Shown here piece by piece: positions 3,443 to 9,130 of a stretch of DNA of 10,269 nt. The stretch covers positions 1 through 10,269 of the forward strand of contig DFKM01000219.1 in assembly GCA_002373555.1 (NCBI GenBank), read 5' to 3'. The first letter of the stretch is position 1, and each line of letters starts with the position of its first letter. The notes under the pieces were generated by a model that did not search any database, was not told the DNA's origin, and was given only the letters and a program-made list of their open reading frames with translations. The translations under genes were made by a program, and so were the position numbers. Source of the DNA: Lachnospiraceae bacterium UBA3645. Lineage in GTDB: Bacteria; Bacillota; Clostridia; Lachnospirales; Lachnospiraceae.

Positions 3443-4585
3443 ATGCCGCCCAGAGGACACAGTTCCAGTTCGAGAAGTTCCAGTTCGCGCAGCTCGAGCT
3501 CGCGCAGTTCAAGTTCGCGCAGTTCCAGCTCCAGAAGTTCAAGTTCACATTCTTCAAGCTCGAGAAGTTCCGGTTCGCGCAGTTCATTCAGTTCATCCCG
3601 CAGCTCCGCCTCCCGCTCCACCGGCAGCTTTTCCCGTACATCCCGTGCGGCCGGCACCGGACTAGCCGGCGGTGCGCTCTTCTCCCGCGGACCGTCCGGA
3701 CATTCCTCCACCAGCCGGACAAGCCGTTCCGTCACCCGGCCCATGAAGCCGAGATTCAACCAGCCGAAGGGATATCGTCCGACCGGTTCCGGCAGCCCCT
3801 CCTACCATTACGGCCGTCGGCATGACTACATCTTCTATCCTGTTGCCTGGACGGATTCGGAGACCGGTACGTATTATGAGAAGGGCTATTATGATGAGAA
3901 CGGCCGCCGCTACGACAATGTTTCCTTCGAAAAAAACGGCAAGTTCGAAAATGTCGTCTGCAAGTGTCAGTATTGCGGTCAGGAAACCGTTCTTGATCTG
4001 ACCTCGGAAGAAACGGCGAACAAAGCCCTGCAGTGTCCGGCCTGCGGTGCGCCGATGTCCATCTCTTCGGAGCTGGACGAATATGACAGCACGGAAGGCC
4101 GGATTCCCTATTCGCCCGAGGTTACCCGCCAGGGCGGTACCAGAAAGCGCAGTCATCTGAAAACGATCCTCATTGTCATTGCCGTGCTGGTGGGACTCGG
4201 AATATATGGAAGTACGCTTTCCAACGATGAAGAATCCTATGACAGCGGCCAGACGATTACGAATACAGCCGATGACAGCATTGTTCTTACGCAGACTTCC
4301 GATCATGCTTATACGGAAAACGGTTCCGCAAACGACAAGGAACTTGTCTGGGACGATGAGACCGGAAGCTATTACGATGCCTCCACGGAATGCTGGGTTT
4401 GGTATAATACGGATGTCGATCCGGCTGTCTGGCAGTACTGGTATGAAGGGATCTCCTCGGACTACGGTGATTTCGGCTGGATGGAGCACGATGCCGAAGG
4501 CTGGTGGATCGAAGAATCCGCCGGCAACTGGGTCGCGCTGCCATCCCAATATGACACATCGAATCTCTGGTATATAGAAGACTGA
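3443..4585 (+). CDS. Unrecognised membrane protein: Ser/Arg repeats, zinc-ribbon-like motif, one transmembrane helix, Trp-rich C-terminus
   Basis: 380 residues from ATG 3443 (GAGG 7 bases upstream). Order of parts: residues 6-50, a five-residue repeat of mostly R-S-S-S-S; 51-110, Ser/Arg/Gly-rich and probably unfolded; 125-170, a Tyr-rich folded stretch (TGTYYEKGYYDENGRRY); CQYCG (175-179) and CPACG (198-202), two CxxC pairs as in zinc ribbons; 241-260, one hydrophobic helix (TILIVIAVLVGLGIYG) after the basic TRKRSHLK, so the N-terminal part should be inside and the C-terminal part outside; 300-380, acidic with about ten Trp in DDETGSYYDA- and EHDAEGWWIE-like units. There is no signal peptide. 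I know of similar hypothetical proteins in Lachnospiraceae only by general impression and assign no function. Stands alone, divergent from the flavodoxin unit. Confidence 0.85.
   Translation: MPPRGHSSSSRSSSSRSSSSRSSSSRSSSSRSSSSHSSSSRSSGSRSSFSSSRSSASRSTGSFSRTSRAAGTGLAGGALFSRGPSGHSSTSRTSRSVTRPMKPRFNQPKGYRPTGSGSPSYHYGRRHDYIFYPVAWTDSETGTYYEKGYYDENGRRYDNVSFEKNGKFENVVCKCQYCGQETVLDLTSEETANKALQCPACGAPMSISSELDEYDSTEGRIPYSPEVTRQGGTRKRSHLKTILIVIAVLVGLGIYGSTLSNDEESYDSGQTITNTADDSIVLTQTSDHAYTENGSANDKELVWDDETGSYYDASTECWVWYNTDVDPAVWQYWYEGISSDYGDFGWMEHDAEGWWIEESAGNWVALPSQYDTSNLWYIED
3458..3592 (+). repeat. 15-bp tandem repeat encoding (R/H)SSSS
   Basis: About nine units, residues 6-50, with H or R at every fifth position (6, 11, 16, 21, 26, 31, 36, 41, 46). 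Units use AGTTC, AGCTC and TCGCGC variants, so they have drifted at synonymous sites. The repeat keeps all three forward frames open and makes an antisense frame of Glu-Leu repeats, both of which are artefacts. Confidence 0.85.
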
Positions 4586-4586
4586 T

Positions 4587-4673
4587 GAAACAGCGGACAG
4601 CCCATGGGGACAGGTTCCGCGGGTTATTTCCGATAACCCGCAGAACCTGTCCCCATGGGCTGTCCGCTGTTTC
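4587..4673. repeat. Long palindromic hairpin element with GGGGACAGGTTC core
   Basis: Arms 4587-4627 and 4633-4673 pair in 40 of 41 positions (only C4618/A4642 fails) around a 5-base loop TTCCG. The outer GAAGAC (4577-4582) and GTCTTC (4674-4679) extend the pairing past a 4-base bulge. It fills the whole space between two convergent genes and touches both stop codons. There is no T run, so it is not a standard terminator, although it may stop or protect both transcripts. The GGGGACAGGTTC and GAACCTGTCCCC ends recall REP-like palindromes associated with Y1 (IS200-type/RAYT) transposases (memory, not verified). Confidence 0.8.
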
Positions 4674-4677
4674 GTCT

Positions 4678-5598
4678 TCATATCCCCTGCAGATCAAATG
4701 CAGGGATAAAACTCTCCAGATATGTTCCGCCCTCCTGGCGGAACCCCTTCTCCACGCCGATCCTGGCAGCGAAATCCAGCACCTTTTCATAGGCCTGCTC
4801 ACTAACCCGGCCTGCCAGTTCCGGATACTTCTCTCCGATCCCCGGCATCGGTGTATACTGATTCATGATGCTGATATAAATCCTGTTTCCATACGTGACA
4901 TGGAGATACCGGATCACTCTCTTTGCATTTCCGGTCTGCCCCGGCAGCACCAGGTGTCTGACGATCACCCCGCGCTTCATCATGCCGCGGTCATCAAACA
5001 CCGGCACACCCGCCTGCCGCACCATTTCCGCCAGCGCTTCCTTCGCCCGTTCCGGATAATCCGGACATCTCGAGTACCTGGCCGCAGGTTCCGGATCGAT
5101 ATATTTGAAATCCGGAAGCCATATGTCGACCAGGCCGTCCAGCATCTGCAGCGTCCTGACAGATTCATATCCGCTGCTGTTATAAACAACGGGTATCCCG
5201 AGTCCTTTTTTCTTTGCCGACTCCAGTGCTTTCACGACGGACGGTACATAATGCACTGCGGTCACAAGGTTGATATTGTTGGCCTTCTGTTCCTGCAATT
5301 CCAGAAAAATATCTGCAAGCCGGTCCGTATCGATCACCCGCCCGGCATGATTTCCCGAGATCTCCCGGTTCTGGCAGAACACACATCCCAGCGGACATCC
5401 CGAGAAAAAGACCGTCCCGGATCCTTCCTTCCCGGAAATGCACGGTTCTTCCCAGAAGTGCAAAGCAGCACGGGCTGCAGTGATCTCTGCACCCATGCCG
5501 CAGGCACCGTATATACCGTGCAGCCGGTCTGCTCCGCAGTTTCGCGGGCAGAGGCGGCAGCACCGGTATTCATCTTCAATCGTCAAATACGCCCTCAT
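4678..5598 (-). CDS. PflX-like radical SAM protein (pyruvate formate-lyase activase homologue, COG1313 type)
   Basis: 306 residues. The radical SAM [4Fe-4S] motif is CPLGCVFC (C68, C72, C75) in a GTVFFSGCPLGCVFCQN context. The N-terminus has a second Cys set, CRLCPRNCG to GACG (C14, C17, C21, C33), the signature of the PflX group. Further on are NLVTAVHYVP, VYNSSGYES, the WLPDFKY strand and a late HLVLPG, also as in this group. Chemistry: reductive SAM cleavage by a radical mechanism; the substrate of the PflX group is not established. It starts at ATG 5598 inside the end of the MBL gene (23-base overlap), so the two are translationally coupled. The ATG has only a weak GATGGA ahead of it; a TTG four codons later has GAGGG 5 bases upstream and is a real alternative. 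The gene ends at the long palindrome. Confidence 0.87.
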   Translation of the reverse strand: MRAYLTIEDEYRCCRLCPRNCGADRLHGIYGACGMGAEITAARAALHFWEEPCISGKEGSGTVFFSGCPLGCVFCQNREISGNHAGRVIDTDRLADIFLELQEQKANNINLVTAVHYVPSVVKALESAKKKGLGIPVVYNSSGYESVRTLQMLDGLVDIWLPDFKYIDPEPAARYSRCPDYPERAKEALAEMVRQAGVPVFDDRGMMKRGVIVRHLVLPGQTGNAKRVIRYLHVTYGNRIYISIMNQYTPMPGIGEKYPELAGRVSEQAYEKVLDFAARIGVEKGFRQEGGTYLESFIPAFDLQGI

Positions 5599-6490
5599 AA
5601 TATTCCATCAGATGGGTCTCTGCGAACATAGCCGCGCCCTGTTCGGGAGTGAAGTTCAGGAAATCTTCGAATCCCGTGCGCAGTTCCGTAAGATATCTGT
5701 GCCATTCGGTCGGATCGATAAAGGGATTGCCGGCTTCGCCTTTCTTCCTGCGTTCGTTCTTCTGATATTCATCGCTGTGGAAAGGATGGTTACCGAGCAT
5801 GATGTCGACCTTCTCATCCCATACCTTCTCGATGGATTCCACGAAAACGCGCTGCATGGAGAGCGGCTGTCCGAACTTCTTCAGGCCTTCTGTGGAAAGA
5901 GAACCGTAGCCGGAACCGCCGTAGATACCGACACGGAGCGTCTCGCCGTCCACATCCATCTCCCAGAAATGGGACATGACGCCGATGGTATGTCCGGGCG
6001 TCAGCACGCATTTCATCTTCACATTGCCGAACTCCAGTACATCGCCGTCTTCCAGCATGACATCGGGTGTAAAGGGCTCATTGTACGGGCCGAGACCTGC
6101 ATCCAGTCTCTTCGTCCGCTCGGGATTTGCAAGCATATCTTCCGTATCGACTCTGCCCATGTAAGTCTTTGCGCCCGTTCTGGCGACCAGCGCCTGAATG
6201 CAGCCGTAATGATCGGTATGTGCATGCGAGCAGACGATCCACTTCAGATCACAGATATTAAAGCCCAGCTTCTGAATGTTGATCAGCAGTCCCGGATATC
6301 CCGATGCGGCCGGAACATCCAGAAGAAGCAGCCCGTCACCGGTATCGATCAGGTGGGATGCGCACCACAGATTGCCCACATAATACAGATTTCCGGCGAT
6401 CTGAAAAGGATCCCTGTCGATCAGATAAGGACGTGCTTTCTGTTCTTCCGTAGGCATCATGTTGCCGAAACGAATATACTTTGTTGCCAA
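5576..6490 (-). CDS. Metallo-beta-lactamase-fold hydrolase, B3-like zinc ligands
   Basis: 304 residues from TTG 6490. I prefer this start over ATG 6535 because AAAGGGG lies 8 bases before the TTG, while the ATG has no ribosome site and would lie at the very 5' end of the transcript from the promoter at 6544-6572. The ligand set is complete: SHAHTDHYG (H89, H91, D93, H94), TPGHTIG (H167) and GNHPFHSD (H235). It is the order seen in class B3-like MBL proteins, with two zinc ions expected. The early part carries YYVGNLWCASHLIDTGDGLL, the typical first strands of the fold. No signal peptide, so a cytosolic hydrolase and not a secreted lactamase. The substrate is unknown. It is coupled to the PflX-like gene by a 23-base overlap, which suggests a joint pathway. 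Confidence 0.88.
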   Translation of the reverse strand: MATKYIRFGNMMPTEEQKARPYLIDRDPFQIAGNLYYVGNLWCASHLIDTGDGLLLLDVPAASGYPGLLINIQKLGFNICDLKWIVCSHAHTDHYGCIQALVARTGAKTYMGRVDTEDMLANPERTKRLDAGLGPYNEPFTPDVMLEDGDVLEFGNVKMKCVLTPGHTIGVMSHFWEMDVDGETLRVGIYGGSGYGSLSTEGLKKFGQPLSMQRVFVESIEKVWDEKVDIMLGNHPFHSDEYQKNERRKKGEAGNPFIDPTEWHRYLTELRTGFEDFLNFTPEQGAAMFAETHLMEYYEGVFDD

Positions 6491-6543
6491 TTTCTTTACC
6501 CCTTTCTTTGAAAACGGATCTTTCAATGCTTCCATATGACGAT

Positions 6544-7173: not shown

Positions 7174-7216
7174 CGCCCCTGTCAGGAATCTGTCCGCTGC
7201 GACCGGTATAAATGCA

Positions 7217-7265
7217 AAAGACGTCTCTCCGGGTAATCACTCCCGTAAGAGACGTCTTTATTTTT
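7217..7265. terminator. Bidirectional rho-independent terminator
   Basis: A perfect 12-bp stem (7217-7228 with 7248-7259, AAAGACGTCTCT) and an inner CGGG/CCCG stem (7230-7233 with 7242-7245). It ends in A and TTTTT on the plus strand and in TTTT-GC-ATTT on the minus strand. It serves the EutQ-like gene (+) and the convergent XRE-HisKA-REC gene (-). Confidence 0.92.
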
Positions 7266-7299
7266 ATCCGCCGGAGACCAGACACCACGACCCGAACAA

Positions 7300-8214
7300 T
7301 CAGAATTCTCCGTACAGATATTGCTTCATGGTCTCGAAAAGCCTGTCGATAAAGATCGGCTTTTCGGCGAATGCATTCATTCCCGCATCAAGCGCCGCAC
7401 TCCTGTCTTTATCATAGACATTCGCGCTCATGGCTACGATCGGCGTGGATGCCTTTGCCGGATCAGTCATCTGTCGGATCCTTCTCGTCGCCTCGATCCC
7501 GTCCATATCCGGCATCATGATATCCATCAGGATCAGATCATAATAGCCTGCCGGGGCCTCTTCCACCATCTGCACGCAGACAGCGCCGTTCTCGGCGAAC
7601 TCGACCAGCACGCCGGTCTGTCCCAGGATCTCACCGGCGATCTCGCGGTTCAGCCGGATATCCTCTGCGACCAGGACACGTTTTCCGGAAAAATCATAAG
7701 GTATACGCTCGCTGCCTGTCTTGCCGGCACGCTCGCCAAGATATTCTCCCAGCTCATGCACATTGGACGGATAGCCTCTGACCAGAGTCTCTCCGCTGTC
7801 CCTATAGGTGACGCGCATCAGTTCATCAATTGACCGCAGCAGGTATTCTCCCGAGATCCGTATGCTCTCCAGATACCGTCCGAGCTTTGCTTCGTCATGC
7901 TTATTGCGCTCCGCCAGATCCACACAGCCGAGGATCATATGCAGCGGTGTACGGATATCGTGCGACATTTCAAAGATCTTTAAAAGTCTGGACGGCTGCC
8001 CGTCATTGACGCTCTCGCCAAGCAGATCGTTGGCCGTCACACCCAGAAGATCCGCCAGTCTCGGGATCAGGGTTATGTCCGGATAAGAAACATCACGCTC
8101 CCATTTCGAAACAGCCTTGTCCGTGACGCCGAGCCTGTCGGCGAGCGCGGCCTGGGTCATCCCGTTCTGTCTCCGGAGGGAGCGTATAAAGGTTCCGAAT
8201 GTTCTATTTTTCAC
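7300..8214 (-). CDS. XRE DNA-binding / HisKA / receiver fusion protein without a kinase ATPase domain
   Basis: 304 residues from GTG 8214 (GGGAGG, 9 bases upstream). Parts: 4-66, a Cro/C1-type helix-turn-helix (TQAALADRLGVTDKAVSKWE); about 76-140, a histidine-kinase dimerisation helix pair with H-box SHDIRTPL (H85); 141-177, a linker; 178-302, a complete receiver domain with acidic pocket E184-D185, phospho-acceptor D231 in LILMDIMMPDMDG, S263 and K285. No N, G1, F or G2 boxes exist anywhere, so there is no HATPase_c domain; only 37 residues lie where it should be. The gene is intact, with good start, promoter and terminator, so this is not a visible frameshift. It cannot autophosphorylate by itself. 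It likely receives phosphate in trans and could pass it between H85 and D231, as a phosphorelay node that binds DNA directly (inference). It follows thiT on the same strand with no terminator between. Confidence 0.9.
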   Translation of the reverse strand: MKNRTFGTFIRSLRRQNGMTQAALADRLGVTDKAVSKWERDVSYPDITLIPRLADLLGVTANDLLGESVNDGQPSRLLKIFEMSHDIRTPLHMILGCVDLAERNKHDEAKLGRYLESIRISGEYLLRSIDELMRVTYRDSGETLVRGYPSNVHELGEYLGERAGKTGSERIPYDFSGKRVLVAEDIRLNREIAGEILGQTGVLVEFAENGAVCVQMVEEAPAGYYDLILMDIMMPDMDGIEATRRIRQMTDPAKASTPIVAMSANVYDKDRSAALDAGMNAFAEKPIFIDRLFETMKQYLYGEF

Positions 8215-8226
8215 CTGTATGCACCT

Positions 8227-8264
8227 CCCGCATACAAGATACCATGAATCCGTGCGGGAAACAA
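8227..8264 (-). promoter_or_regulatory. Promoter and candidate operator of the XRE-HisKA-REC gene
   Basis: Minus strand: -35 TTGTTT (8259-8264), 17 bases, -10 TATCTT (8236-8241). The -10 is framed by an inverted repeat CCCGCA (8227-8232) and TGCGGG (8253-8258) with a 20-base gap, a possible autoregulatory site for the XRE domain. The left half also overlaps the ribosome binding site. Confidence 0.45.
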
Positions 8265-8289
8265 TCTACGGTTGGTTTACATAGTCCGC

Positions 8290-8975: not shown

Positions 8976-9029
8976 CAATGATGCTCGGAAATCTGTCTGC
9001 CGCATGCAATGCATATGACAAAGACAGTA

Positions 9030-9130
9030 CTCTGCGTCCCTATCGCCGGTATTACCCGGATCAGGTTCAAAGGGTCTGTTCTCAGCCCTGCCGGGACGGT
9101 CCGGCTGGTTGGGCACCCCCTCTGGCTGTT
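9030..9130 (-). promoter_or_regulatory. TPP (thiamine pyrophosphate) riboswitch aptamer
   Basis: Minus strand, 5' to 3': GGGGTGCCC (9111-9119), a GC-rich P3 hairpin, CTGAGA (9080-9085), ACCCTTTGAACCTGATC (9059-9075) and GGGTAATACCGGCG (9044-9057), then ATAGGGA. These are all conserved THI-box elements, in order. It is the classic element upstream of thiamine genes and lies about 100 bases before thiT, which should be shut off when TPP is high. Confidence 0.97.

Follow-up and report, generated by a model that had tools for sequence, protein, structure and literature searches.

The window, by which we mean the whole 10,269-nucleotide stretch of DNA analyzed, carries on its minus strand a regulator gene (7300..8214) with GGGAGG ahead of a GTG start and a full reading frame of 304 codons. 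The encoded protein joins a Cro/C1-type helix-turn-helix (HTH) domain (residues 10-63, 8026..8187; HTH_3, E 6.9e-14), a HisKA/DHp hairpin (residues 83-140, 7795..7968; HisKA, E 2.8e-9) and a receiver (residues 180-295, 7330..7677; Response_reg, E 2.1e-23), all on the minus strand. Each of the three Pfam matches lies above its curated cut-off, which confirms the earlier note in its claim that an intact gene places a Cro/C1 HTH, HisKA and a complete receiver on one chain. H85 (7960-7962), E184, D185, D231 (7522-7524), S263 and K285 sit at the positions it had given, and T89 (7948-7950), H92 (7939-7941) and F282 (7369-7371) are further residues of the hairpin and receiver. The linker (residues 141-177, 7684..7794, minus strand), which takes the place of HATPase_c in a hybrid kinase, matched no family; neither there nor elsewhere in the protein was any HATPase-type match found at E<=1, and the same kind of domain scan detected HATPase_c in a control hybrid kinase (E 1.2e-26). 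The linker of about 37 residues without HATPase boxes is thus as described before. In the AlphaFold2 model of the monomer (pLDDT 80.9, pTM 0.66), a five-helix HTH is followed by a two-helix hairpin (76-103/108-136), a linker of low pLDDT and a (beta-alpha)5 receiver. By its domains and residues, the protein has the HTH_3 fold and recognition helix of an XRE/Cro-C1 regulator of the TDKAVSKWER type, the acidic pair, acceptor Asp, S/T and K of a response-regulator receiver, and the aromatic switch residue of response regulators on beta 5 (F282). The HATPase_c domain of a hybrid kinase, between HisKA and REC, is missing.

Between the regulator gene and a convergent eutQ-like gene lies a hairpin (7205..7275; z-score -5.88 with the minus strand folded), which was not called by a simple terminator scan but is likely a bidirectional terminator, as had been proposed. 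On the other side, a TPP riboswitch (9019-9130, minus strand; RF00059, 61.6 bits against a gathering score of 54.3) stands ahead of a thiT-like gene (9021-8290), with the regulator gene next and behind its own promoter. No partner kinase was found among the scanned genes of the window. Elsewhere, positions 4584-4676 form a near-perfect palindrome of 93 bp that matches its reverse complement at 90% identity, has a fold of about -91 kcal/mol, and draws microRNA family matches that fall below their gathering scores and are probably due to the hairpin shape. The gene at 5576-6535 (minus strand) codes for a metallo-beta-lactamase-fold protein that resembles subclass B3 models but reaches the curated cut-off for none of the NCBIfam models shown, and on these profile scores it should not be called a beta-lactamase.

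Three protein searches, which list the best 120 of 2751, 648 and 565 matches among candidates up to 1.75x the query length, gave 287 different proteins, the window's own included, with 262 of them 280-320 residues long. When these were rescanned individually at E<=0.1, HTH_3 and HisKA were each found in 287/287 and Response_reg in 286/287. No precomputed domain list of the 287 listed homologues, read by eye, includes HATPase_c (PF02518), nor is this domain among the 25 commonest families of the rescan, in which it could go unshown in at most 2/144 and 3/143 relatives. A private deletion, which would have shown as homologues that all carry an ATPase domain, fails as a reading among these relatives. 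By domain content, HTH-HisKA-REC without HATPase_c is a conserved family. In an alignment of 301 sequences (the 287 proteins and 14 genome loci) the linker varies from 1 to 163 residues, most commonly 37 (105/301) or 24 (65/301); one protein, P0287, lacks both the linker and helix 2 of the DHp, its HTH and first helix continuing directly into the receiver. T31 and K33-R40 of the HTH are invariant across 140 aligned rows.

Full-length members occur in metagenome-assembled genomes (MAGs) named Lachnospiraceae, Ruminococcaceae, Oscillospiraceae, Clostridiales and Solobacterium, although MAG names may be wrong. Their spread is patchy: the gene is present in 5/61 relatives, all within the genus (5/11), in 3/397 genomes of the family (E<=1e-45) and in 1/391 of the class (E<=1e-60), with G000 included in each count and no more than five candidates scored for each genome in the family and class scans. 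The copy in G009 has one in-frame stop. ORF clustering across 16 loci, in which the regulator gene itself is absent from the ORFs chosen at L102 and L022, showed no gene family that stays beside the regulator gene. Conserved neighbors were consequently dropped as a clue to function, the clustering giving at best pairs and one family at three loci; ThiT and eutQ-like neighbors are common to genus members only. Carriage on plasmids or phages was likewise rejected, as no record in either collection had one place covering 80% of the query. Among the open-licence papers listed by literature searches, none described an HTH-HisKA-REC protein without HATPase. The architecture is a variant of the DNA-binding response regulator, and one not found described in the open-licence literature searched.

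The two potential phosphate acceptors behave very differently across the family. Position 85 holds H in 139 of the 301 sequences, followed by R (68), A (56), S (12), P (8), Q (7), K (7), D (2), T (1) and one gap, so that it is not His in 162/301. These counts carry a sampling bias, since members without H85 served as the second and third queries: the His is kept in 112/120 rows from the first query, 18/95 new rows from the second and 2/70 new rows from the third. The same position is not His in 7/14 genome-borne members, a count that leaves out L013 (on the same contig as L100), L023 (partial) and L096 (internal stop). D231, by comparison, is D in all 300 sequences with a letter there, D185 is kept in 300/301, K285 in 299/300 and F282 in 299/300. 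A FastTree tree was built from 299 rows, leaving out column 85 as well as P0183 (a fragment) and P0287 (the natural deletion). On it, the minimum number of changes between H and non-H at position 85 is 14, and it is 0 for both D231 and D86. For context, published figures give the His as missing in 0.9% of HisKA domains, 722 of 76,471 (PMC12632262). As judged by this alignment, the DHp acceptor His is dispensable in the family, but the receiver acceptor Asp is not. With H85 lost repeatedly and D231 invariant, much of the family must be able to get phosphate to D231 by a route that does not use H85. The earlier view of H85 as the obligatory phosphate entry is thus unsupported, given at least 14 changes at that position. 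Of the one-chain phosphorelay proposed with it, the part that stands is that HTH and receiver share a chain; relay through H85 is unsupported as a family mechanism.

The rest of the DHp core is nearly fixed (D86 301/301, R88 300/301, P90 301/301, H92 293/301), with T89 in 205/301. T89 is kept in 138/139 members that bear H85 versus 66/160 of the others, though counted by independent pairs the linkage is not significant (2.3 the same way versus 0.0, of 9). According to excerpts of PMC3510030, a T or N at the place of T89 is needed for phosphatase activity in HisKA proteins, and the acidic residue beside the His is needed for kinase activity. D86, the counterpart of that kinase-only acidic residue, is invariant in a family without a kinase domain. 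The window copy retains both H85 and T89, which leaves room for a phosphatase or back-transfer role there; from these residues, its DHp may take part in phosphate chemistry, be it as phosphatase, in back-transfer or even in relay. Since H85 and T89 occur together in 138/139 members, the DHp may exceed a scaffold role in the window's subgroup. In a coevolution analysis (mean-field DCA, Neff 146), pairs between DHp and REC make up 25 of the top 100, with about 19 expected from pair numbers, an uninformative difference.

For comparison, the hybrid kinase on C57 was used to align 30 kinases encoded in genomes of the relatives (the count omits L109_5, a second ORF without H-box). The H-box His is present in 29/30 of these controls versus 139/301 family sequences, and the H+7 residue is Asn in 30/30 versus His in 293/301. 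At the receiver switch position the controls have H in 27, Y in 2 and F in 1 (the L133 row may be misplaced), as against F in 299/300 of the regulator family. According to PMC9981736, regulators of the CtrA type conserve the aromatic residue of the S/T-Y/F switch on beta 5, whereas it varies in the receivers of CckA-type kinases; the same paper assigns other hybrid kinases to another profile, and the beta-5 aromatic rule is therefore not universal. In this respect the family receiver looks like the receiver of a regulator, and in the aligned sequences the differences at H+7 and at the switch position together indicate one consistent shift that followed the loss of the ATPase domain. The C57 kinase, in which HisKA, HATPase_c and REC are all confirmed, is the best non-self match by E-value in the genome (39% over residues 162-297), and the L025 kinase matches regulator residues 67-300 at 44%. 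Because of these similarities, a hybrid kinase would be the source of the DHp and receiver. Hybrid histidine kinases of the HisKA-HATPase_c-REC type, such as a 489-residue protein of the same genome (L105:5024-6493, minus strand), have a similar DHp and receiver, whereas the regulator has no ATPase domain, carries an HTH in front, belongs to a family in which H85 is dispensable, and differs in H+7 (His, not Asn) and in the receiver switch (Phe, not His). Two of the proteins encountered are unusual in themselves: a hybrid-kinase-like protein in G012 (L131), with Arg in place of the H-box His, is possibly a pseudo-kinase, and a 972-residue hybrid kinase (L025:4273-7188, plus strand) has an amino acid permease domain ahead of HisKA-HATPase_c-REC.

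The promoter of the regulator gene was not detected by a consensus scan, and was seen as TTGTTT-17-TATCTT through comparison of 15 upstream regions (the window and 14 loci). All 15 contain GTAAACCAnnnGTCGATTG or a variant of it about 45-75 bp ahead of the likely start, although the start used is off in a few rows. GTAAACCAnnnGTCGATTG lies 20 bases ahead of a TATnnT-like -10, and its TTG is therefore that of the -35. In the window, on the minus strand, the -35 hexamer TTGTTT is at 8259..8264 and the -10 hexamer TATCTT, with a TGn extension and after a 17-bp spacer, at 8236..8241. The promoter claimed in the earlier note is thereby located, and the hairpin beyond the gene remains its likely terminator. 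The exact 8-mer GTAAACCA is present in 10/15 upstream regions, with variants by eye in the remaining five. The likely operator, GTAAACCAACCGTAGATTG (8262..8280, minus strand), includes an imperfect dyad (8263-8277) and overlaps the -35, which suggests repression. The promoter-shaped pattern with fixed spacing precedes the regulator's own gene in 16/16 carrier genomes scanned, with no mismatch in 10, one in 2 and two in 4; the match in the window is exact, and 0.17 chance matches would be expected at 3 mismatches. The window gene therefore has ahead of it a predicted site shared across carriers, and a dyad in the gene's own promoter fits the earlier suggestion that a dimer places two HTH domains on an operator, with the dimer itself a matter of inference.

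The predicted operator extends beyond the carriers. A matrix built from 17 sites scored at least 12 upstream of 39/57 other XRE genes with a [TS]DKA[VI]S[KR]WE helix, versus 0/57 for reversed upstream and 0/53 for downstream sequences, with medians of 16.1, -3.4 and -4.7, respectively, and a limit of 12 that was chosen after seeing the scores. These genes, which include 2 near-duplicates and 53 with downstream sequence, came from 57 of the 65 loci L028-L092, fetched by HTH similarity, the other 8 having no qualifying gene. Many of these genes have a site of the form TAAAC[CT]nnnnGTCGGTTG, which resembles the dyad AACCGACnGTCGGTT. Among 397 genomes of the family, the promoter-shaped pattern at up to 1 mismatch occurs in 17, versus 3 reversed-control hits, and only G000 of the 17 had the regulator in a scan that scored five candidates per genome, so the operator also occurs beyond the carriers. 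Among the 16 sites in genomes other than G000, two (L239 and L251) precede XRE genes with a TDKAVSKWER helix, one (L242) precedes an apparently broken gene of this kind, three (L240, L244 and L249) are inside long ORFs, and the rest precede varied genes or nothing clear. In the 6 non-carrier genomes of the genus the long pattern was found in 0/6 at up to 2 mismatches and in four at 3, and a shorter pattern without the -10 matched 4/6 at up to 2 mismatches. On the pattern of these matches, the predicted operator is likely tied to the TDKAVSKWER helix type and to the regulator's own gene.

Few further targets emerged. In three species of the same genus (G000, G003 and G004), the sole other exact promoter-shaped site precedes a putative RNA of about 75 nt (L156 in G000, L157 in G004, L162 in G003), which consists of a conserved core, GTCCTCTTnTnAATCCCGCTTGCCCGG, a GC-rich stem and T-rich sequence. 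The core was found in 3/22 genomes and in none of the other 13 carriers. Fold z-scores are -2.51 (G000), 0.36 (G004) and -1.83 (G003), and the fold alone is therefore not compelling. In the terminator stem, which a simple terminator scan did not call, 2/12 pairs are changed on both sides and another two are broken in one cell each; four cells are broken in the leader helix, and the covariation term is slightly unfavorable (+0.78). A T-box leader follows the putative RNA in all three species, and in G000 it has its own promoter (TTGACA-17-TAAAAT), which makes the short RNA look as if it were transcribed separately. Base-pairing to ribosome-binding sites is conceivable for its CCUC stretch, which resembles an anti-Shine-Dalgarno sequence. 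In streptococci such pairing has been proposed for the csRNAs under CiaR, according to excerpts of PMC3091779; CiaR is a response regulator that drives short RNAs with anti-Shine-Dalgarno stretches and a terminator, a possible parallel. Set against CiaR as the same excerpts present it, the protein architecture and operator here are different, and the counterpart is one putative RNA in 3/22 genomes, seen as sequence only. In G807, a paralogue from the regulator family that has R at position 85 stands behind the second exact site; this genome has two paralogues, G807:C142 and G807:C205 (L202 and L015), one with R and the other with S at that position, each behind an exact operator pattern. We rejected rtcB as a general second target, since only 2/6 carriers with rtcB (G004, G009, G809, G810, G811 and G812) have a good near-site, namely L185 in G009 (1 mismatch) and L210 in G810 (3 mismatches). 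The near-site is very weak in G809, and none was found in the other three rtcB carriers or in two non-carriers with rtcB. The rtcB-like RNA ligase genes of the two carriers are a lead only, suggested by these near-sites.

In our assessment the protein is probably an autoregulated DNA-binding response regulator, made from an ATPase-less hybrid kinase and an XRE HTH, dimerized by its DHp and switched by phosphorylation of the receiver. The architecture, its conservation, the dyad site in its own promoter, and the invariant Asp with its aromatic switch come directly from comparison of sequences, and from them we infer DHp pairing, DNA binding, repression, and phosphorylation of D231 and its source. 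The starting point would be a hybrid histidine kinase from which the ATPase domain disappeared and to which an XRE HTH was added. Two chains would pair through their DHp hairpins, and the two HTHs would sit on the dyad over the gene's own -35, blocking RNA polymerase. D231 would be phosphorylated by a kinase in trans or by acetyl phosphate, shifting the receiver (S263-F282) on the DHp scaffold and changing DNA binding. In copies with H85 and T89, the window's included, the DHp may dephosphorylate D231, making a self-resetting switch. Candidate targets are the gene itself and, in G000, G003 and G004, also the putative RNA. Somewhat against the odds, a fuller version may hold, in which the DHp, once the ATPase was gone, turned into a dimer clamp and receiver dock whose phosphatase or back-transfer activity was kept or shed by lineage, the receiver gained its aromatic switch, and the result is a self-limiting phospho-switch on an XRE operator with a small RNA as the only other evident target in the nearest species.

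Other readings explain parts of these data. It is unlikely that the protein is a phosphorelay node in which H85, in the manner of DHp-type phosphotransferases, takes phosphate from the receiver of another hybrid kinase and hands it on to D231 within its own chain: hybrid kinases are present in the genome, and the window copy has H85 with the T89 that nearly always accompanies it, but half of the genome-borne members lack this His and its repeated switching leaves D231 untouched. A distinctly unlikely alternative makes a hybrid kinase the direct partner through mixed DHp dimers, with the kinase ATPase supplying the phosphate or the kinase being inhibited. The nearly invariant DHp core motif is consistent with it, as is a C57-kinase match (E<=1e-50) in 5/5 genus genomes with the gene versus 1/6 without (one-sided Fisher p 0.013, or 0.024 without G000), a co-occurrence that is suggestive only, from 11 mostly incomplete genomes, with a threshold not set beforehand and a query kinase from G000. 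The His at H+7, where all control kinases have Asn, argues against such mixing, as the DHp interface has therefore diverged.

That the operator is common to plain XRE proteins would suit an ordinary XRE autorepressor with a bulky tail, its receiver a constitutive protein-protein module for which phosphorylation is irrelevant; we consider this very unlikely in view of five receiver residues and a switch aromatic that are near-invariant. A decaying remnant or chimeric assembly is hardly credible. The interrupted copy in G009 and the partial DHp of P0287 could be taken as signs of it, but 287 fetched relatives have the same domains and conserved residues, and the promoter and operator are conserved.

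Each part of such a regulator has counterparts. The XRE/Cro-C1 regulators with a TDKAVSKWER helix, such as the proteins with an HTH and a hydrophobic tail in L028, L029 and L031, share its HTH and the operator motif over their own -35, but by eye none of 12 XRE sequences has a receiver. Canonical DNA-binding response regulators of the OmpR and NarL types combine, like it, a catalytically complete receiver, switch aromatic included, with a DNA-binding output on the same chain; here, the HTH is N-terminal and of XRE type, and a DHp hairpin stands between output and receiver. The DHp-type phosphotransferases Spo0B and ChpT and the pseudo-kinase DivL likewise have a DHp fold without working kinase activity, but they are not known to bind DNA, and Spo0B and ChpT need their His, a residue that is present in the window copy but in only 139/301 members of the family.

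The family amounts to a natural experiment in taking a histidine kinase apart. Its members could help to distinguish the roles of the DHp as acceptor, phosphatase, dimerizer and receiver dock, and they could show, residue by residue, what is required for a kinase receiver to become the receiver of a regulator. The link between the predicted operator and a common XRE helix type may also make the regulons of unstudied gut regulators easier to predict.
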